From a virus: DNA of 31,894 nt. This document shows, piece after piece, positions 2,690-29,627 of this stretch (position 1 is the first letter of the stretch; the number at the start of each line of letters is the position of its first letter). Made by a program: the position numbers and the translations under genes. The stretch covers positions 1 through 31,894 of IMG/VR virus record IMGVR_UViG_3300020467_000025. One strand, given 5' to 3'. Below the pieces are notes generated by a model. It did not search any database. It was not told the origin of the DNA and saw nothing but the letters and a program-made list of their open reading frames with translations.

Positions 2690-4879
2690 CTAACCACCTG
2701 ATTGTATCTTGGTCATGTTGACTACTGTATAGTCATCACTTGTTGTTTCAAATCCATTAAGGACGTAACTAATATCACCTGCTGAAGAATAAACAAGTAG
2801 ATTCTGACCAGGACCCACTATGATTGAACTATTCTTATCTGTAATGTTGGCAGCAACTGCCTTACCATAGAAGAAGTAATCTTCTGTTGAATAAACTTCT
2901 GTCTGATCTGTGTGAATTGCTGTGCTGATTGTATTAACATCAAATGTCAATGCAGCACCACCACCTCCTCCTAACTGGGAGTCATTAACTGTAAGAGTAT
3001 CGGATCCAGCATGACCATATCCACCATTTAATAGTGTGATAGTCGCTGCACCTGATCCATCTACCACAATAGTGACCTTGGTAGTTGCTATATCTCCAGA
3101 TCCACCTGTTGAATTAGGTGAAATGTTTGTGTATGTACCAGCACTACGAGATGCGTCAGCACCACCAATATTATTAATGGTGAGTGCCTTACCAGTCCTT
3201 GCTGTTGTAAGGTGACGTACTCCATTATTTAATGTAGGTGTATCATAGAATGCATCATTAGCAGCAAATGCTTCTGATCCTTCTCCAATAGTTACCTTCA
3301 AATGACATGATGCTGGATACCAATCTTGGACATATCCAAAAGGTCCAACTGTAATACCACTCTGCTGAATAGTCTGAGTAGTAGCAGATATAGTAAATGT
3401 ATCCGCAGCAGCAAGTACTTCACCCTTCACGTCATAGATGTATATCTCATTATATGATGGGTTGTCGTTAACATTTGCAACGAAACCAATACCAGTTGTA
3501 GATCCAGCAGGGGATCCATCTGCGTATACGTTTAAGTTTGCCTGTGTATCAGCAGTAATATCAATACTTGTGTATGCTCCACTTGAACCAGCAGTACCTA
3601 CCTTGCTGACTCCAGCAGTATATTCAGTACCTGATCCATTTGTACCTTCAGGATCATCTCCAGAGAATTTCAATGGATAGTTAGTACAAGTAGAATCTTC
3701 TAGGTTATACTTGTATGTCCTATTCAAGTCATATGTGTTAATAGTCTGAATGATATGATCTGTTGCTCCAACACTAGTAGTTGATAAAACATACTTTGTA
3801 TCGATAGTTGCACCCTGTGCAGTGTTAAAGTTTAAAGCAACAGTGGCATTAGATTGAGATCCAGTTACAGTCTCACCCTCACTAAAATAGTTTAAGAGAT
3901 AAATTCCGTTATCTGTTAGAAGAGTTACGTTAACACCATCGTTGTGATCAACGTCAGTTGTACCATAACGTCCTCTTACAACACTAAGGTCGTTACCATT
4001 AACTTCACTGATCTGCATCAATTCGTTATCAACGATGACGATAGATCCAGAAGTAAATCCAGTAGAGTTAGCAACAGTTAATACATTATCACCAGCAACA
4101 TAAGTTGCACCCTCAGCGATAGTTGATACAGTAGCAGAAGCAGACCAAGCATTAATCTGACTACCAGCAGGAATGGCAGCAGCAGTAGATCCTAGTTGTC
4201 CTCTTGATAACTGTAAAACATTAGTCGTTGTATTAATACCAGAAGAGTTGATACTCATTACTTCACCATCTTGCAATGTTGCAAGGTTTGTACCAACACC
4301 TGTAAGATACATACCATCTGCAAGACCTGTTGTCCTTGAGATGTTTACTGTAGTACCACCAGCAGCAATTTCTGCGTATTCTGTCCATACAGCGATGGTA
4401 GCATTCATTCCCCTGAATGTTGCTGTGAAACCTGAAGTTGCTCCAGTTAGTGTCTCACCACCTATTAATGTACCAGCAAGGTTGTCTCCATCAATTGCAG
4501 TACCACTGATAGGTAATACTTTTACAAAGTAATCTACGTCATTAGTAGGTTTAAATACATCTAATATGGTAGCAGTAGCACCATTAGTAGTTGTAAATGT
4601 AGTACCTGGGATTGCTGCTGAGTCTTGGAATCCAGGTTCCACGTTAATCTTGTATGCTGATATGGGGTTACCCTTAGCAAACTTATATGCGGATGTATTT
4701 AATCCATCCAAATGTAGCACTTGTTCGTAGTCACGAAGTGCTGCTCTATATGAAACACCACTACCTGATTGGTTGCAAACATTTAATACTGTGCTTGCAC
4801 TCTTATCAATGGGTGTCCTATACAGAACCGTATTTGTAGTTGCACCAGGCTTGCTGGCGGCTAATCTTCCTGCTGTCAT
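2690..4879 (-). CDS. Virion structural protein with repeated beta modules
   Basis: A 729-aa protein rich in Thr, Gly, Ser, Asn and Ala, with no cleavable signal and no enzyme motif. Two related modules sit in tandem at about residues 170-315: each has a G-x-N-V/I-L or T-V-N-I strand, then a 'T-G-F/L...G-x-x-V/L' turn, then 'ELMQI' or 'EVMSI', then 'L-x-R-G-x-x-G-T/S-T'. This ELMxI...RGxxGTT arrangement recurs in phage particle proteins that build beta-rich shafts or fibers. Gly-rich blocks such as GGGGGAAL follow nearer the C-terminus. The ATG is one base beyond the stop of the 447-aa gene upstream (stop at 4881), which suggests cotranscription from the TATAAATA at 6253. A structural role follows from composition and position; the exact particle location is unknown. 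Confidence 0.8.
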   Translation of the reverse strand: MTAGRLAASKPGATTNTVLYRTPIDKSASTVLNVCNQSGSGVSYRAALRDYEQVLHLDGLNTSAYKFAKGNPISAYKINVEPGFQDSAAIPGTTFTTTNGATATILDVFKPTNDVDYFVKVLPISGTAIDGDNLAGTLIGGETLTGATSGFTATFRGMNATIAVWTEYAEIAAGGTTVNISRTTGLADGMYLTGVGTNLATLQDGEVMSINSSGINTTTNVLQLSRGQLGSTAAAIPAGSQINAWSASATVSTIAEGATYVAGDNVLTVANSTGFTSGSIVIVDNELMQISEVNGNDLSVVRGRYGTTDVDHNDGVNVTLLTDNGIYLLNYFSEGETVTGSQSNATVALNFNTAQGATIDTKYVLSTTSVGATDHIIQTINTYDLNRTYKYNLEDSTCTNYPLKFSGDDPEGTNGSGTEYTAGVSKVGTAGSSGAYTSIDITADTQANLNVYADGSPAGSTTGIGFVANVNDNPSYNEIYIYDVKGEVLAAADTFTISATTQTIQQSGITVGPFGYVQDWYPASCHLKVTIGEGSEAFAANDAFYDTPTLNNGVRHLTTARTGKALTINNIGGADASRSAGTYTNISPNSTGGSGDIATTKVTIVVDGSGAATITLLNGGYGHAGSDTLTVNDSQLGGGGGAALTFDVNTISTAIHTDQTEVYSTEDYFFYGKAVAANITDKNSSIIVGPGQNLLVYSSAGDISYVLNGFETTSDDYTVVNMTKIQSGG

Positions 4880-14277: not shown

Positions 14278-16590
14278 TTACATAAACTCCACAGGATCTG
14301 TCATAAACTCATTGATAATACCAAACTTAGGATAGATATACTTATCAGCATCATGGTGCTCCTTACCAGGAACAATGATAGGGTTATCACTTGAAGCATC
14401 AATACTACTTCCTACTTCTGCTGTCTCTCCATTTATAACAACAGTAGAAGAACTATCTTGAAGAGCATTCTTCAACTTCTCATATCTTACTTGCTGCTCT
14501 TTCTGTTTTGAATCTTCTAACTTCTGACCTATATTATCCTTTAATCTTCTAGCACCATCAAGCATGCTACCACGTTGATCAAAGTCAGTCAGACCCATAG
14601 TCATATGATCAGCAGCACCTGCTAACCATCTCCATATACCTTGTGGTTTAGTATCATCCTTTGATTCTCCACCTTTCTCATAAGAGTGTAGATGTTTTAC
14701 TTTATACTCACCACCAGCAGCAAATGGAGTACTGTAACCTGCTCTCTTTGCTTGCTTTAATCGTCTAGATGTTAGACCCTTATCACTCCTAGTAGCAGGA
14801 GTATCAAATGGAACAATATATTGTCCACCAGATGCCTTCTTATTTCCTACCCACTCAAGACCATGACCTATAAATGCTGGTGTAATACCATTTAATGTTA
14901 CTGGATACCCTGACTGAGGACCATTGATCCAACCACCTTTAGCTTTCTTAGGTAATTCTCCACCAGCTGCCTTTGGGGGATTCTCCGAGGGCTGCTCCAT
15001 CTGCATCTGTCTGAATTTCTCCCGACTTTCTATTACTGCTTCTTTCCAACCTTCATCACCTTTCTTAAGTGTTTTGCCATCTTTTGTAACCCTAACATCA
15101 TCATAAGTACCAGCTTCAAACGGATCAGTAGTAGAATAGTGGGTAGTTTTAGTACCATCCTCTTTCTTATCCCCATTTCCCGTACCAGGATCCTCCCCTT
15201 TCTCACCACCTGTAAAGAGTTTAAGGACTGCGGTTAATGCTTTCATCCCTAAGAATAGAGGCCAGAATAGTACCTTAAATCCAATACCTAAAATCTTAGT
15301 GATGATAGGCATATGAGGTTCTACTGCATCAAGAATTCCACTTAGGAATTTTCCAAGAGTACTAAAGAATTCCTCCAATGGTTCCTTTATCTCTTTAATA
15401 ACACCATTAAATGTATCACCAATCATCTTAAAGAAATCACCTATAGGTTTAACAATAGGTTCTATAAGACCACCAATCGCCTTACCTACCTTACCACCTG
15501 CCAAACCACCAACAAGACCACCAATAGCAGCACCTCCAGGTCCACCAAGCATTCCACCAACTTTAGCACCAAGTGCCTGACCACCAGCAGCACCTACACC
15601 AGCACCTGCTGCTTCAGCATTACTACCACCTTCACCTTTTACTGCTGTAAATGCCAAGGCACCAGCACCTAATCCAGTAGCAATCTTACCTACTTTACTA
15701 CCAAACCAGTTGCCTTTACCACCTTTTAATTTCTTAAGTTTAAAGTCTCTAAACTTTTGGTCTTTACTTTGGAATCCAAATAGTCTCCTCAGACCTCCTA
15801 CTATACCTCCTATTACCTTCTTAGCACCATCAAGCATCAGCTTAGGATTCTTCAAGAATAGCATGGTACCAAATATAGGTACCGCACCAAGAACAAACTT
15901 GATTGCACCAAAGAATCCTTTCAAACTAATAGGATTCTCCAAGAAAGAGACAAGTCCATCAAGTGCCATTCCACCTAGGAATGAATACACATTGAATACA
16001 AACTTACCTATACCACCCAGTATCATCCCTAATTTTGCTACTGTCTTAGGATTCTTTGCTATCCATTCAAATATCTTGAACTTAACCAAGGCAAGATATA
16101 CACCAAAGAATTGAAAAAGAGCACCAAAGATACCACCAGCTGCTTTCTTAGTTGCACCAATAACACCCTCACCAAATCCTGCTTTCTTACCCTTCTTCTT
16201 CTCTGCCTTATCTTCCTTACTATTCCTTAGTTGAAACAGTCTTCTCTTCTTTGTCTGTTTATCTTTAAATGCTTTTCTCTTCCTGTCTTTCCTATCAGTA
16301 AGAGCTTCTTGTTTAGCTATCTTATCAGCACTCTTAACCTGAGTCCTAATATTATCTCTCCAACTGGTGAGAGAATTCTGTGTATTAGCAGCAATACTAT
16401 TAAGAGTAGATCCTAATGAGTTAAGACCAGATACAATCGATTGTAGTCCTCTACCTATACTCTTCTCAACCTTTGGTAATCTTGCTGCAGCAGTTATAGG
16501 TGTATACTTTGACTGAACACCAGTGACCCCTTTATAAGAGATCATCTTATACATCGATGCCTTTTTAACTTTTGCAGATACTTTTGCCAT
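14278..16590 (-). CDS. Tape-measure-like tail protein B, 770 aa
   Basis: A basic N-terminus (residues 1-140, with a run of Lys/Arg at 100-137) is followed by hydrophobic helices at about 150-265 and a Gly/Ala-rich segment at 322-378 (AEAAGAGVGAAGGQALG). Next come helices with repeated KPIG-like breaks, a hydrophilic region after about 470, and a Gly-rich C-terminal part with AKGGWINGPQSGYPV, FIGHGLEWVG and GGQYIVPFDTP. The GGWINGPQSGYPV...FIGHGxEWV block is seen in phage tape-measure-type proteins. Length and composition fit a coiled or helical tail-length protein; at about 0.15 nm per residue it would span roughly 115 nm. It is paralogous to the 774-aa gene just upstream. It sits after the tail chaperone-like genes, as expected for a tape measure. 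Which of the two is the true ruler is unclear. Confidence 0.7.
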   Translation of the reverse strand: MAKVSAKVKKASMYKMISYKGVTGVQSKYTPITAAARLPKVEKSIGRGLQSIVSGLNSLGSTLNSIAANTQNSLTSWRDNIRTQVKSADKIAKQEALTDRKDRKRKAFKDKQTKKRRLFQLRNSKEDKAEKKKGKKAGFGEGVIGATKKAAGGIFGALFQFFGVYLALVKFKIFEWIAKNPKTVAKLGMILGGIGKFVFNVYSFLGGMALDGLVSFLENPISLKGFFGAIKFVLGAVPIFGTMLFLKNPKLMLDGAKKVIGGIVGGLRRLFGFQSKDQKFRDFKLKKLKGGKGNWFGSKVGKIATGLGAGALAFTAVKGEGGSNAEAAGAGVGAAGGQALGAKVGGMLGGPGGAAIGGLVGGLAGGKVGKAIGGLIEPIVKPIGDFFKMIGDTFNGVIKEIKEPLEEFFSTLGKFLSGILDAVEPHMPIITKILGIGFKVLFWPLFLGMKALTAVLKLFTGGEKGEDPGTGNGDKKEDGTKTTHYSTTDPFEAGTYDDVRVTKDGKTLKKGDEGWKEAVIESREKFRQMQMEQPSENPPKAAGGELPKKAKGGWINGPQSGYPVTLNGITPAFIGHGLEWVGNKKASGGQYIVPFDTPATRSDKGLTSRRLKQAKRAGYSTPFAAGGEYKVKHLHSYEKGGESKDDTKPQGIWRWLAGAADHMTMGLTDFDQRGSMLDGARRLKDNIGQKLEDSKQKEQQVRYEKLKNALQDSSSTVVINGETAEVGSSIDASSDNPIIVPGKEHHDADKYIYPKFGIINEFMTDPVEFM

Positions 16591-16593
16591 CTA

Positions 16594-18918
16594 TTAACAA
16601 ACAAACATTGGACTTGGGACTTTAGTAACCCTTCTAGATCTAGTACCAGTTTTGATAGTATTTATCGTTGGTACCGTCACCCTCTGTACAACTGTCCTAG
16701 GTGGTAATATTACATCCTGAACTGATGCATCCTTTTTCTTCTTCCATTCAAGAGCATCATGTCGTGCTTGCTGTTGAAGTACCTGCTGCTCTATCTGTGA
16801 CCTTATATCCATATCTGAATATGCAGGTGTTTCTTGAGTTGGTGTAGGTGTTATCTCTTCCTTCTTATTACCTCCAAAGAGTCCCTTTACACCACCCCAT
16901 AATCCCTTAGCAACATTACCTATACCACCAATTATTTTCTTACCAGTACCTATTACTCCCTTAGCTGCCATACTTGCCAACTTCAATGGAAGTTGTTGTA
17001 TATTCTGCAAAGCATTATTACCCCTACCATCGAAGTCAAATATACCTCCTGTTAGAGTGTCAGCAACACCACCTAATACACCTTTCCAACCACGTTTTTC
17101 TCCTTTCTCACCAGTTTCACCAGGTTCCTGTCCATCTTTTTGTGCTTTATGCAAACCTAGACGAATTTGCTCTGCATCAAATTCTGGATATGTATTACCT
17201 TCTAGTATTGTTGATCTAGTTTTTTTGTATTTCGGCAGTGCATTCATATCCTGCCATTCTATAGACCTTAATACACCCTCAACATGAACCTCATCCGTTA
17301 CTTCCCACTTCTCTTTCTTCTTAAATAAACCACCAAGGAAATATTGAGGAAGTTTCAAAGGTCCACCCTTTGCCATCTCCTCCAGTTTTACATCCTTTCC
17401 AGGATCCTTACCCCTTATAATTTTCCATGCGAATCCTATGGGATTCGTCATAAACGCAAATATATTCTTAGCAGCACTTATAATAAACTTGATTGTACCT
17501 GCCAGTACTTTAATGACACCACCTAATAACCAACCGATAGGTTTCATTATCCACCCTATAATGTCAAACATTACCTTACCAATTTGACCTATGAAATCAA
17601 ATAAGGTACCAAGAAACTCTGTTACACCTGTTTCACTAGCAATACCCTGAACTAATCCCCACATCATTTCAAAATACTGCTTAATAGGTTTAAATAGTGG
17701 TTTGATTACTGGTAAGAATGTCTTACCTACCCACTCACCTAAGAAACCACCTAATGCATTACCAACTATAGGTCCAAATGGTCCTAAGAATGGTGTTAAC
17801 ATTGCAGCACCTATCATTCCACCTGCTGCCTGTCCAACACCTGCACCGACTGCTTCAGTCTTATCCTCACCCATTGCAATACCAGACATCATACGAGTAA
17901 GACCACCTGCTATTGCAAGTCCCTTCTGCATGCCAGGTTTCCCCATCTTTCTACCAAAGTTCTTACCAGACTGTAATCTGGTAGGATTCTTCATCCTCGC
18001 ATTAAACTTATTACCAATCTTTCTTGCTTGATCGTTTCGACCCTGTAATCTTAACTTCTTCTGCTGTCTCTCGACAGACTTCTTCTGTGCTTTATATTCT
18101 TTTTCAGTGTATATCTTACCTGTCTCTGAATCCTTATAACCAAACTTACGCCATTGCTCTTGTTTCTTCCATTCCACCTCCTTCACAGAAGTATCTCGGA
18201 AGAGATTCTTTACCTTCTTACCATCACTGAATAGTTTTAATGGATTTAATAGATATCGAAGTGTAGCAAAACCTGCAATTAACTGTAGGAATCCTGTAAG
18301 TGGTGCTAATGCCTTAGCAATACCTGTCTTATTACCAGCACCAAAGAGATCAGTAATACCTCTAGCAATATTAAAGACACCAAACCCCAATATAGCGAAT
18401 CCAAACTTACCTATAGCAGTAAGTAACTTGAACACCTTCGCAGCTCTCTTTGCTTTCTCTGGCTTAGCTAACCACGAAAATAATGACATCTTAATAAAGA
18501 CATCAAATATAGGTGTCAAGAACCCAGATAAAACCTCAAGAAAGCTCAGAGCTGCTTTCTTTGCCTTCTTCTGTATTGGACTTTCTTCTTTTCCTTTAGT
18601 ACCTTTCGTCTCTGCTTTATTTTCTTTCTTATTCCTCTGCTCAAACTTGAACATGCCCAAGAAACCTTTTCTCCATTTCTGGAACACATTCAGATCTTCT
18701 TTCTCTTCCTTTTGATCTTCATCTACCTCTTTAAAAGATTTGGTACGTAACCAATCTCTTTCAAATGTAATAAGTTTCTCTGTCTCTACCTGATTATGAC
18801 TAATACTAGTTACTGTCTTACCTGTACGATTGATACCCTTCCGAATCTGATTGAAAGTTCCAGAATAAGCACCATCATCCTTGATGGGTTTAATTTTGAC
18901 GTAACTCTTAATTGCCAT
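16594..18918 (-). CDS. Tape-measure-like tail protein A, 774 aa
   Basis: Same architecture as the next gene: charged N-terminus to about residue 122, hydrophobic helices at about 124-240 (FSWLAKPEKAKRAAKVFKLL), a Lys/Gln-rich stretch at 250-330, and a Gly/Ala-rich membrane-like segment at 353-395 (TEAVGAGVGQAAGGMIGAAM). A block VGKTFLPVIKPLFKPIKQYF follows, then more hydrophobic helices up to about 510 and a hydrophilic C-terminus with GVADTLTGGIFDFDGRG. It lacks the GGWINGPQSGYPV block of the 770-aa paralogue. The ATG overlaps the stop of the frameshift ORF (TAATG). The role is tail length determination or hub/tube scaffolding by position and composition; T4 gp29 fills this place in the T4 order 26-51-27-28-29. 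Confidence 0.7.
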   Translation of the reverse strand: MAIKSYVKIKPIKDDGAYSGTFNQIRKGINRTGKTVTSISHNQVETEKLITFERDWLRTKSFKEVDEDQKEEKEDLNVFQKWRKGFLGMFKFEQRNKKENKAETKGTKGKEESPIQKKAKKAALSFLEVLSGFLTPIFDVFIKMSLFSWLAKPEKAKRAAKVFKLLTAIGKFGFAILGFGVFNIARGITDLFGAGNKTGIAKALAPLTGFLQLIAGFATLRYLLNPLKLFSDGKKVKNLFRDTSVKEVEWKKQEQWRKFGYKDSETGKIYTEKEYKAQKKSVERQQKKLRLQGRNDQARKIGNKFNARMKNPTRLQSGKNFGRKMGKPGMQKGLAIAGGLTRMMSGIAMGEDKTEAVGAGVGQAAGGMIGAAMLTPFLGPFGPIVGNALGGFLGEWVGKTFLPVIKPLFKPIKQYFEMMWGLVQGIASETGVTEFLGTLFDFIGQIGKVMFDIIGWIMKPIGWLLGGVIKVLAGTIKFIISAAKNIFAFMTNPIGFAWKIIRGKDPGKDVKLEEMAKGGPLKLPQYFLGGLFKKKEKWEVTDEVHVEGVLRSIEWQDMNALPKYKKTRSTILEGNTYPEFDAEQIRLGLHKAQKDGQEPGETGEKGEKRGWKGVLGGVADTLTGGIFDFDGRGNNALQNIQQLPLKLASMAAKGVIGTGKKIIGGIGNVAKGLWGGVKGLFGGNKKEEITPTPTQETPAYSDMDIRSQIEQQVLQQQARHDALEWKKKKDASVQDVILPPRTVVQRVTVPTINTIKTGTRSRRVTKVPSPMFVC

Positions 18919-19103
18919 TAGAGAGACATTTTATTTTCGTCTTGTTTTTGCCTTCTTTCTTCCTCTTGAATATGAGCGATAAGAAGGTTCACGTATACAT
19001 CACGTTCCCACGGTATCATATTTTCCAACTCAGTCAGAGAGTATTTGTGATGTTGCATTAATGCGAAGTTAGTCTTGTAGTAATTCTCAAGACTGTCATG
19101 CAT
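18918..19103 (-). CDS. Small tail chaperone ORF, probable frameshift extension of gp26
   Basis: The 61-codon frame begins MHDSLENYYKTNFALMQHHK and contains YSLTELENMIPWERDVYVNLL, then a charged tail. It lies six bases after the gp26 stop, in the -1 frame relative to gp26. Downstream reading after a slip at the T-run before the gp26 stop would give ...FF-RVAL-MHDSL..., so a 298-residue fusion is possible (233 + 4 + 61). This G/GT arrangement just before tape-measure genes is the classic tail assembly chaperone layout in long-tailed phages; in T4 the gene in this place is 51. Separate translation from the ATG at 19103 is also possible, but no good Shine-Dalgarno sequence precedes it. Confidence 0.72.
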   Translation of the reverse strand: MHDSLENYYKTNFALMQHHKYSLTELENMIPWERDVYVNLLIAHIQEEERRQKQDENKMSL

Positions 19104-19121
19104 TAACGCTACTCGAAAAAA
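19055..19121 (-). promoter_or_regulatory. Programmed -1 ribosomal frameshift site
   Basis: On the minus strand, gp26 codons AGT TTT TTC GAG TAG contain the heptamer T-TTT-TTC (19121-19115) in the canonical X-XXY-YYZ phase, one sense codon before the stop. After a 5-nt spacer, GCGTTAATGC (19109-19100) can pair with GCATTAATGC (19064-19055) over 10 bp with one G-U. The 35-nt loop holds a second perfect 7-bp stem, AGTCTTG (19094-19088) with CAAGACT (19077-19071), around a 10-nt loop. A -1 slip leads directly into the 61-aa ORF. Frames and positions were checked base by base. Confidence 0.78.
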
Positions 19122-19813
19122 CTTGCTAGTCCCTCAAGCACTAATTCACTCTCGACCTTTGTATTTGGGTTTGTTACCTTTAATTTATAAGATAGTTTAG
19201 GCATAGTCTCAAAGAATTGCTGAATCTTACCAAACTGGTCTGCATTCAAATCTTCCAAGAATTCTAATGCTTCCTTCTTAGTGAAAGAATCATAAACCTC
19301 TTCTTTATCATATACTTGACCAATACATCCTGCAGCTAATTCAAATACATCCTCTATATCAGGGTTATCTGATAGGTTTTGTTGAATAAAGACATCCAAT
19401 GAAGGATACTTCATCTTCACACCTACATTCCCATCTAAATCAATCTCAGCATTGTGATCATCAGGGATCTCAACGTTGACTTCTGCAAGAGGGATACTGA
19501 CATCCACTTGGGTTTTCTCATCATCTGGACATGTGACTTTAAATTCACTTGTCTCACCAACAGCAACAGATCTAATCTTAAGGAAGATATATTCAATCTC
19601 AAAAGTAGAGAGTGACTCAACCTTAGTCTTTAGGTTAGTGCAGTTTTTAATAATAGTCTTCACTGCTTTGACCATCTGCTTGTTGTCTTGCGACTCCATA
19701 GCGAGATAGAGTAGTTTCTCTTCCTTAACTAGGAATGGTCTATATGATATTTTAGTGCCTGTTACAGGCAGGGTCGCTTCATACTCAGGTATGGCTAACT
19801 TAGGTAATGGCAT
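19109..19813 (-). CDS. gp26: Baseplate hub / tail chaperone protein gp26
   Basis: A 234-aa protein matching the T4 gp26 baseplate family (Pfam T4_baseplate type). The N-terminal LPKLAIPEYEATLPVTGTKI is followed by YRPFLVKEEKLLYLAMES, IIKNCTNL, FEIEYIFLKIRSVAVGE and a cysteine-containing strand VTCPDDEKTQVDV. The C-terminal half is helical (DVFIQQNLSD, EALEFLEDLN, IQQFFETMP) and ends LVLEGLASFFE. The family acts in hub and tail assembly; in the tail-chaperone view it would be the G-like partner for the tape measure. It is preceded by the tube-fold protein gene (26-nt gap) and followed by the frameshift ORF. The run of six T at codons 231-233 forms the slippery site. Confidence 0.85.
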   Translation of the reverse strand: MPLPKLAIPEYEATLPVTGTKISYRPFLVKEEKLLYLAMESQDNKQMVKAVKTIIKNCTNLKTKVESLSTFEIEYIFLKIRSVAVGETSEFKVTCPDDEKTQVDVSIPLAEVNVEIPDDHNAEIDLDGNVGVKMKYPSLDVFIQQNLSDNPDIEDVFELAAGCIGQVYDKEEVYDSFTKKEALEFLEDLNADQFGKIQQFFETMPKLSYKLKVTNPNTKVESELVLEGLASFFE

Positions 19814-19838: not shown

Positions 19839-20597
19839 TTAGACACCAAATCCAGCTGCTGCATTCTGTTCGTCTGCAACGCCAGTAGTACCTAATCCTG
19901 ATGAGGTGTTTATGTATCTATCTGGTGTATTAATTCCCAGTCCTTCTGTTCCTACTCCATCAAATCTATATCTCTCGTGCTTAAACTTAACGCTAAACTT
20001 AACTAAATTGGTAGGACCATTACTATATGATGCTCCACCCATGTCATAGGGCCATGCTCCAAAGAATTGCCAAACTGCCATAGATGCATTAAGTCTTGTC
20101 CTATATGTTGCATTTGCCTCTGTAAGACCTTCCCAACTAATAGGGGATCCAACTTCCCACTTTGTTATTATTAGGTTACAAATATACTCCTCATATATCC
20201 CTGATCTATTCTCCATGTCTGGTGCTGCCCAGTTCATCCAATGCTCAAAGAATTGACGATGGTATTGATACTTGTCTGTTATAAAGGTAATATCCAGATC
20301 ACCATGTTGCTGAGTCCTAGCATGTGAATATGCTGCACCTTGCCATGCTGCTGCTACCTTTTGATCTTGTATCCTCTTACCAGGTATAGTAACTTGATCT
20401 GCCATGTAATTCATGGAATCAAATGCATGTCTCTGGTCTTGCATTATAAATTGAGTGTTTTCCTTCAAACATGTAGGAAGAAATAACCTAACTCCGTACA
20501 GGTTAGATCTAGAGGGTTCAAGTTTACCAGTCTGGACTTGAGCCCTCCATTTTTCAAAGCTATTCGGGTTACTAAAGGTTTCTAGTTCTTGACTCAT
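19839..20597 (-). CDS. Tail-tube-fold baseplate protein (gp54/gp19-like)
   Basis: A 252-aa protein with SRSNLYGVRLFLP near residue 30, QVTIPGKRIQDQ near 70, then DLDITFITDKYQYHRQFFEHWMNW and the late strand VKFSVKFKHERYRF. The arrangement NLYxVRL, xxIPG, hydrophobic strand plus FFExW helix, and a closing KFxHxRY strand is typical of T4 gp19-type tube proteins and the tube initiator gp54. Its place between head/neck and hub genes favours a tube-initiator role over the main tube protein, which is usually near the sheath gene gp18. It overlaps the 159-aa gene upstream by ATGA. A C-terminal tail of about 30 residues is Gly/Thr/Ala-rich. Confidence 0.65.
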   Translation of the reverse strand: MSQELETFSNPNSFEKWRAQVQTGKLEPSRSNLYGVRLFLPTCLKENTQFIMQDQRHAFDSMNYMADQVTIPGKRIQDQKVAAAWQGAAYSHARTQQHGDLDITFITDKYQYHRQFFEHWMNWAAPDMENRSGIYEEYICNLIITKWEVGSPISWEGLTEANATYRTRLNASMAVWQFFGAWPYDMGGASYSNGPTNLVKFSVKFKHERYRFDGVGTEGLGINTPDRYINTSSGLGTTGVADEQNAAAGFGV

Positions 20598-24793: not shown

Positions 24794-25142
24794 CACCCTC
24801 ATCTTTAAGATCTTTTCTCCACTGACGTAGTTTTGTTTCCATCTGATCTAGTACCATATTGAGGTTAAGACCACCACTATACTCGGTGGACATCATCTCA
24901 ATTCTATTCTTTATTTCTTTTGCTGAGTCATCATCCTGTAACTCATTAGCTGCTAATTGTAACCGTGCATAGAATACTTTTTGCTTCGCTACTAACTCTA
25001 ATGTCTTCTCGATGTGCTCAAGTCTCTCATGTGGATTGAATTCCTTTAAACCAGAAGACATCTTCAAGAGTTCAGTATAACACTCTTGTATTGACTCTAG
25101 TTCCTCTTGCACTACTTCTGATTGAAAGAAATTGTCATTCAT
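24777..25142 (-). CDS. DUF1825-like protein, 121 aa
   Basis: Starts MNDNFFQSEVVQEELESIQECYTELL, close to the cyanobacterial DUF1825 opening FFxSEIVQEE...Y..L. The rest is all helical, with heptad-like charge (HERLEHIEKTLELVAKQKVFYARLQLA) and a C-terminal DQMETKLRQWRKDL helix. DUF1825 is mainly a cyanobacterial family, so this may be host-derived. It lies between gp33 and gp32 (ATGA overlap with gp33), a place where T4 keeps replication and transcription factors. Function unknown; a helical adaptor is an inference. Confidence 0.72.
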   Translation of the reverse strand: MNDNFFQSEVVQEELESIQECYTELLKMSSGLKEFNPHERLEHIEKTLELVAKQKVFYARLQLAANELQDDDSAKEIKNRIEMMSTEYSGGLNLNMVLDQMETKLRQWRKDLKDEGVDKPK

Positions 25143-25384
25143 AGGTTTAAAATGCCTTTACTTGTCCTTTTAATGTAGTTTAATTGTTGTGCGTCCCATT
25201 TGATCTTGTCTTTTAATGGTTTAGAGATCAGTTTACCTACTGTCTCCACCTCAATCTCAAACTCTTCACATACTGAGGCTACACCCTCGATATAATTTAT
25301 AAGACCATTACTGTCCTTTACCCTGTCCTCAACGAGCGAGGTGAATTTACCTTGTGTCATAAATTTCTCTTCAATTTCTTTCAT
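25139..25384 (-). CDS. gp33: Late transcription coactivator gp33
   Basis: An 81-aa protein: EKFMTQGKFTSLVEDRVKD, then GLINYIEGVASVCEEFEIEVETVGKLISKPLKDKIKWDAQQLNYIKR. This matches the phage late-transcription coactivator pattern (small, helical, 'YIEAI...CEE..IE.E.VGKLIS..LKDKI..EAQ.LN'). In T4, gp33 links RNA polymerase, the gp55 late sigma factor and the gp45 clamp. It would serve the TATAAATA promoters found in this window. It overlaps genes on both sides by ATGA, and sits next to gp32 as in T4. Confidence 0.8.
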   Translation of the reverse strand: MKEIEEKFMTQGKFTSLVEDRVKDSNGLINYIEGVASVCEEFEIEVETVGKLISKPLKDKIKWDAQQLNYIKRTSKGILNL

Positions 25385-28771: not shown

Positions 28772-29316
28772 TCTATAATGTCCTCCAACTTAAATATTGA
28801 TACAAATTCTAGATCATTATCCTTCCATGTCTTATGATCTTCCATCCTATCAACGATAGCAACGACACGGTTAACAATATAACCTGCCTTGCGTAGCACT
28901 CTGACTGCCTGCATTGCACTACTACCTGTGGTAGTGACATCTTCTAGGACTGTTACAACTGATCCTTCGGGTGGTTTATTACCCTCAATGTATTCTTTTG
29001 TACCATATCCCTTGGCATTCTTTCTAACAATTAAAGCATCGATGTGCTTGTTACCTGTGTAGTATGCCTTCTGTGCTACACCACAGACTAATGGGTCTGC
29101 TCCTAGTGTCAGTCCACCCACTGCTACTGCATCAGGATCAATCAAGTCGATCATTAGATGTGATAGAAGTGCGTTACCTTCACACGATAGAGTCACAGGC
29201 TTACAGTTGACGTAATGGTGTGACTTCTGTCCAGATGATAGAAAATATTCCCCATATCTATATGCTCTCTCCTTCAGTAGATGAAGTAGAGTTGATCTAT
29301 GCTTATCTTCTGTCAT
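28768..29316 (-). CDS. pyrE: Orotate phosphoribosyltransferase PyrE
   Basis: A 182-aa protein; bacterial PyrE is about 210 aa. The PRPP-binding motif VTVLEDVTTTGSS is at residues 121-133, with the flanking GYGTKEYIEG loop (about 103-112) and the N-terminal YRYGEYFLSSGQKSHHYVNCK that contacts orotate. LTLGADPLVCGVA is the conserved strand-helix before the flexible loop. It converts orotate and PRPP into OMP in pyrimidine synthesis. pyrE is a known auxiliary gene in marine cyanophages. It overlaps the neighbours by ATGA at both ends. With thyX close by, it suggests extra supply of pyrimidine nucleotides. Confidence 0.93.
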   Translation of the reverse strand: MTEDKHRSTLLHLLKERAYRYGEYFLSSGQKSHHYVNCKPVTLSCEGNALLSHLMIDLIDPDAVAVGGLTLGADPLVCGVAQKAYYTGNKHIDALIVRKNAKGYGTKEYIEGNKPPEGSVVTVLEDVTTTGSSAMQAVRVLRKAGYIVNRVVAIVDRMEDHKTWKDNDLEFVSIFKLEDIIE

Positions 29317-29627
29317 TTCTTTTTCTTTTTTGGTTTAGGAAGTGTAGTCAAAGGATTATTATACATGCCTGGTTGTCTGGTGCCCTTGGTATAGGACATC
29401 TTCTGCATGCAGTCACCAAACATATCATAGTAGGTGTCAAAGATTCCAACAGATTCACCCATTACTATGTCAAACCATGTATCATCCTTCACCTTTAATT
29501 CTAGCAGATATGCATTAGTTGGCAACGTCTTATCGTTAGCTGCATCAGGTGTGCATCCAGTCTTAATGATGGAGCAACCCTGTCCTGCTTCATTAATCTG
29601 AAGGATCTGCTCTTCAGTTAACTTCAT
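29313..29627 (-). CDS. Hypothetical protein, 104 aa, with a poly-lysine tail
   Basis: Starts MKLTEEQILQINEAGQGC and has four cysteines spread through the chain. DTWFDIVMGESVGIFDTYYDMFGDCMQKM in the middle looks like a helical domain, and the C-terminus PKPKKKKK is very basic, which suggests nucleic acid or RNA contact. It overlaps the DUF6433-like gene upstream and pyrE downstream by ATGA. I do not recognise a family. Confidence 0.72.
   Translation of the reverse strand: MKLTEEQILQINEAGQGCSIIKTGCTPDAANDKTLPTNAYLLELKVKDDTWFDIVMGESVGIFDTYYDMFGDCMQKMSYTKGTRQPGMYNNPLTTLPKPKKKKK

Follow-up and report, generated by a model that had tools for sequence, protein, structure and literature searches.

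Tail Assembly Chaperones of Lambda and T4-Like Phages

In phage lambda ribosomes shift to the -1 frame shortly before the short tail assembly chaperone gene ends, which fuses a downstream domain to gpG and gives gpGT, with the tape-measure gene adjoining, and this G/GT frameshifting is widely conserved 'except T4' (Atkins et al., 2016). For T4-like phages, tail assembly chaperone (TAC) genes were identified by Vladimirov, Gautam and Davidson (2022, Virology 566:9-15). Later papers relate from that study that TAC-N genes of T4-like phages are known to contain poly-T slippery sequences (Adele paper, PMC12846349, citing Vladimirov 2022) and that in certain T4-like phages a short gene is accompanied by a long, fused one (PRFect, PMC10274946). 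In T4 itself gp51 is essential for assembly but is not part of the finished particle, and gp26 and gp51 are both listed as hub assembly chaperones (PMC3004832). Cyanophage gp51 was described as about 200 N-terminal residues short (Sullivan et al., 2010).

The arrangement analysed here has already been published for T4-like phages and has also been described in most other long-tailed phages. In the outline that the later papers give of the system of Vladimirov and colleagues, the phage under study is one more instance of a TAC-N/TAC-NC pair with a poly-T site. Our contribution consists of selection statistics for the codons and for the -1 frame, a control site, lineage-specific stems, start-codon losses and a fold match.

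Layout of the gp26 Locus

The window, i.e., the whole stretch of DNA that was analysed, is a virus contig of 31,894 bases from a T4-like marine phage whose nearest named isolate by gp26 is cyanophage P-TIM40 (67% identical). The site and all window genes described below lie on the minus strand. gp26 (19109..19813, -) encodes 234 amino acids, matches Pfam PF12322 T4_baseplate (2e-69) and PHROG 150 (9.5e-77) and would be the unshifted short tail assembly chaperone, TAC-N. The 3' end of the gene reads GCA AGT TTT TTC GAG TAG. As the original prediction had stated, the heptamer T TTT TTC, which can be read directly at 19121..19115, fits the X XXY YYZ phase exactly, and a single sense codon (GAG) separates it from the stop codon TAG (19109..19111, -), for which relatives have TAG, TAA or TGA at the equivalent place. 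The slippery site of lambda is G GGA AAG, whereas the window phage has T TTT TTC and a contractile T4-type tail.

In the -1 frame the sequence continues as FF-RVAL-MHD and so on. This frame had been predicted to be open through RVAL into a 61-amino acid ORF (19103..18918, -) and to run on into the tape-measure-like genes. The first part is correct, but there is no run-on because the TAA at 18920..18918 ends the frame. The small gp51-like ORF matches PHROG 634 ('baseplate hub assembly catalyst') and in addition the C-terminal part of PHROG 150. Together with RVAL it forms the putative TAC-C extension (18918..19115, -; PHROG 634, 5e-30; PHROG 150, C-terminus), which is homologous to the C-terminus of T4 gp51. 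A -1 shift would bypass the gp26 stop and join 233 residues to 65, giving the predicted TAC-NC of 298 amino acids, which has its N-terminal part in common with the 234-amino acid product.

The gene order tail tube, chaperone, tape measure is present, where the tape-measure label is based on weak matches only. The tail-tube-like gene upstream of gp26 (20597..19839, -) matches PHROG 45. The next gene downstream (16594..18918, -; 774 amino acids) starts with an ATG (18918..18916) that overlaps the TAA of the -1 ORF. It is tape-measure-like by weak matches to PHROG 973 (6.5e-7) and PHROG 794 (1.6e-6; tail length tape measure), it also matches phage tail families labelled 'endolysin', and it would be the expected client of the chaperone. 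The adjacent genes of 774 and 770 amino acids (14278..18918, -) belong to the same families with endolysin and tape measure labels and resemble a duplicated tape-measure-type pair.

Conservation of the Heptamer and the -1 Frame

Conservation of the heptamer and of the frame relation in relatives had been set beforehand as a test. A scan of viral contigs yielded 80 relatives, which together with the window give 81 loci. Their gp26 proteins are 53-87%, mostly 53-56%, identical to that of the window, and at 70% identity they divide into 18 groups, so the set does not represent one clone. TTTTTTC is identical in 81/81 loci, and in all 81 the -1 frame passes the stop codon. Of 63 conserved gp26 columns, only those of the heptamer's two Phe codons lack any synonymous change, and their synonymous entropy of zero is the lowest value, whereas elsewhere in gp26 TTC makes up 28% of the Phe codons (256/910). 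Immediately before these two codons every locus has a T, which closes the codon AGT, TCT, AAT or GCT.

Selection can also be seen in the protein sequence past the site. The residue following the two Phe is variable in frame 0 (A/G/E/V/S), whereas frame -1 has Arg (CGN) in 80/81 loci, which shows that the -1 frame is under selection ahead of any possible start codon. Five residues past this Arg a His is kept in the -1 frame in 78/81 loci.

The heptamer was also found in 9/9 further cyanophage isolates. The same layout is present in KVP40-like vibriophages, Citrobacter phage Ci1, Stenotrophomonas phage YB07, Ochrobactrum phage ORM_20 and Caulobacter phage Cr30, the last with T TTT TTT; the KVP40-type and Cr30-type scans comprise two relatives each.

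T4 gp26 and gp51 as Short and Long Form

The study of Vladimirov and colleagues reportedly names T4 genes 26 and 51 and reports that frameshifting is kept in several T4-like groups. T4 differs from the window phage in having two neighbouring, divergently oriented genes and no frameshift. Both T4 products match PF12322 and PHROG 150, and only gp51 matches PHROG 634, at its C-terminus; it thus resembles the predicted long form in consisting of a gp26-like part and the same C-terminal domain. A profile alignment of the gp26 and gp51 families gave 97.3% probability (E 2e-11), and by these sequence comparisons T4 gp26 and gp51 are paralogs. Since the domain that would be reached by slipping in the window phage is in frame only in T4 gp51, T4 gp26 corresponds to the short form and gp51 to an already fused long form. 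The original prediction had set the locus against separate genes 26 and 51 in T4. The two genes are indeed separate, but the counterpart of gp51 is the whole fusion and not the small ORF alone. The residues missing from cyanophage gp51 are supplied by gp26.

The same pair was found in ten T4-type loci, one of which (L104) has a broken gp51 reading frame. In L104 the gp51-like gene (about 3296-3360) is split over two frames, possibly by a sequencing error.

The AF2 model of the window gp26 has a pLDDT of 85. Its N-terminal domain (about residues 1-85 or 1-87) resembles the HK97 tail assembly chaperone gp13 (2ob9; Z 7.7, 84 residues, rmsd 4.1) and B. subtilis YqbN (3klu; Z 7.3), which rank first and second with the next match at Z 3.6. 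gp26 differs from these proteins in about 145 further residues, and sequence identity is 8%. As the Z-scores are middling, the match supports a TAC fold without being decisive. Foldseek alone gave E 0.9 for the gp26 model, and the gp26 profile had no significant match among the sequences of solved structures. The model of a T4-type gp51 gave no chaperone match, which is not counted against the chaperone reading.

Alternative Explanations for the gp26-gp51 Junction

One alternative reading of the junction is that of two separate proteins, in which translation of gp26 ends at TAG and resumes 5 nt further on, at the ATG at 19103, giving a free 61-amino acid gp51. It agrees with the ATG just past the stop in the window and in many relatives and with the records, in which gp26 and gp51 are entered as two distinct genes. 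However, in many relatives the -1 ORF lacks an ATG ahead of codon 17-18: the first one is found at codon 17 or later in 11/81 loci, where the conserved FALM(Q) region lies, and equally late in 6/9 of the further cyanophage isolates, five of which have no annotated gp51. Moreover, the codons between heptamer and ATG are conserved as a -1 protein, R-[VIL]-[ASG]-[ML], in T4 the domain occurs solely in a fusion with a gp26-like part, and re-initiation leaves the invariant heptamer unexplained. We regard two separate proteins as very improbable, although in the window, where the small ORF does have an ATG, some separate 61-amino acid product might be made. Still less credit can be given to slippage of the RNA polymerase at the T6 run, by which a mixed mRNA pool with some gp26 mRNA in frame with the extension would arise. 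Every locus does contain six consecutive T, but strong transcriptional slippage usually requires runs longer than six T, and in the 81 loci the run is exactly six, never longer, and preceded by G, C or A; Caulobacter phage Cr30 has seven. In addition, the phase is always X XXY YYZ with C as Z.

The heptamer could also simply result from the conserved Phe-Phe with which gp26 ends, without any role in decoding. Gly-Leu-x-x-Phe-Phe is a conserved ending of TAC-N, also in T4 gp26 (GLKEFFELL). Yet T4, which needs no shift, has TTC TTT at this position and thus no slippery site, and the codons in other invariant Phe columns vary. The window itself provides a negative control: the gp33-like gene has TTTAAAC in phase, one codon ahead of its stop, and of 80 relatives with 89-100% amino acid identity only 35 retain it. 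This reading is about as remote as transcriptional slippage.

A -1 frameshift at T TTT TTC very probably takes place, as judged from the comparison of the loci. The 298-residue fusion and the G/GT-like layout that had been predicted are both supported by the conservation, the start-codon losses, the selection on the -1 frame and T4 gp51 as a natural in-frame fusion. A joined gp26-gp51 product is annotated in none of the phage records examined. Where the joined frameshift product belongs, cyanophage records either omit 'gp51' or list it as a truncated gene or a protein of its own.

RNA Structure Downstream of the Heptamer

Two nested stems had been predicted downstream of the heptamer, and both can form in the window. 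The outer stem GCGTTAATGC/GCATTAATGC has 10 bp (19109-19100 with 19064-19055; 19055..19109, -) and starts 5 nt past the heptamer. Inside its loop lies the 7-bp inner stem AGTCTTG/CAAGACT (19094-19088 with 19077-19071; 19071..19094, -). The 82-nt fold of the window has -23.1 kcal/mol with z = -5.3, and 0/200 shuffled sequences were as stable. Across the loci the 75 nt past the heptamer have a mean z of -1.9 with 40% below -2, vs 4-11% at four control positions.

Compensating changes in the stems, which the original prediction had named as support, were found mainly in the inner one. In the 17 nearest loci this stem is paired in 88% of cells with changes on both sides at 5/7 pairs, whereas the outer stem is paired in 76.5%, has a double change at one pair and is limited to near relatives. 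The stable fold is absent in two loci with 79% and 75% identity (L005 and L006), RNAalifold on the 17 closest loci gave a nearly empty consensus with no common structure, and a search of Rfam gave no match. Because of the nearly empty consensus the idea of a single conserved RNA element was dropped in favour of lineage-specific stems. A second group of loci has a different hairpin, GTATGGCACA...TGTGTCATAC, directly past the stop.

Judged by covariation of the inner stem, the stems are real in the window and its nearest relatives, to which the outer stem is confined. They may act as lineage-specific stimulators of the shift. More tentatively, T4-like lineages may have independently added differing stimulatory structures to one fixed heptamer, i.e., a nested double stem in the clade of the window and a post-stop hairpin in the GTATGGCACA...TGTGTCATAC clade. 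This would have kept the ratio of short to long chaperone under lineage-specific tuning, e.g., to tail length, before T4 swapped the site for a gene duplication. We consider this scenario possible but rather doubtful.

Proposed Mechanism

Most ribosomes would end at the TAG and release the 234-amino acid short form, which would resemble lambda gpG. A minority would move back by one nucleotide while both tRNAs sit on T TTT TTC, and in the lineage of the window the hairpin 5 nt downstream may help. The slipped ribosomes would bypass the stop and produce the 298-amino acid long form with the C-terminal 'gp51' domain, comparable to gpGT, in low amounts as had been predicted. By analogy to lambda, many copies of the short form would cover the tape measure protein, a few copies of the long form would bring in the tail-tube subunit, and neither form would stay in the virion. 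T4 would have met the same need without slippage, by a short gene 26 and a paralogous gene 51 as long in-frame fusion. T4 has long been cited as the exception to the G/GT rule; its relatives appear to follow the rule, and T4 has two genes instead of slippage.

Other In-Phase Heptamers and Divergent Loci

The TTTAAAC that precedes the stop of the gp33-like gene (25142..25384, -), where the next gene lies in the -1 frame with an ATGA overlap, was also considered as a second frameshift site. With its conservation in 35/80 relatives it was ruled out, and the motif probably occurs there by chance. Another gene of the window (29313..29627, -) has an in-phase AAAAAAG three codons ahead of its stop, in a poly-Lys tail (PKPKKKKK).

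In Ackermannviridae (L088, L108-L125) the -1 TAC-C extension is conserved, and gp26 ends with (A/G) ATT TTC AT[TC] taa, which holds no X XXY YYZ heptamer. In Synechococcus phage S-SCSM1 (L095, 3708-3760) the -1 frame is closed by an insertion past the heptamer, estimated by eye at about 11 nt, which moves the gp51 part to the +1 frame beside an ATG. This may reflect a sequence error or a fusion that was lost or changed in that lineage.
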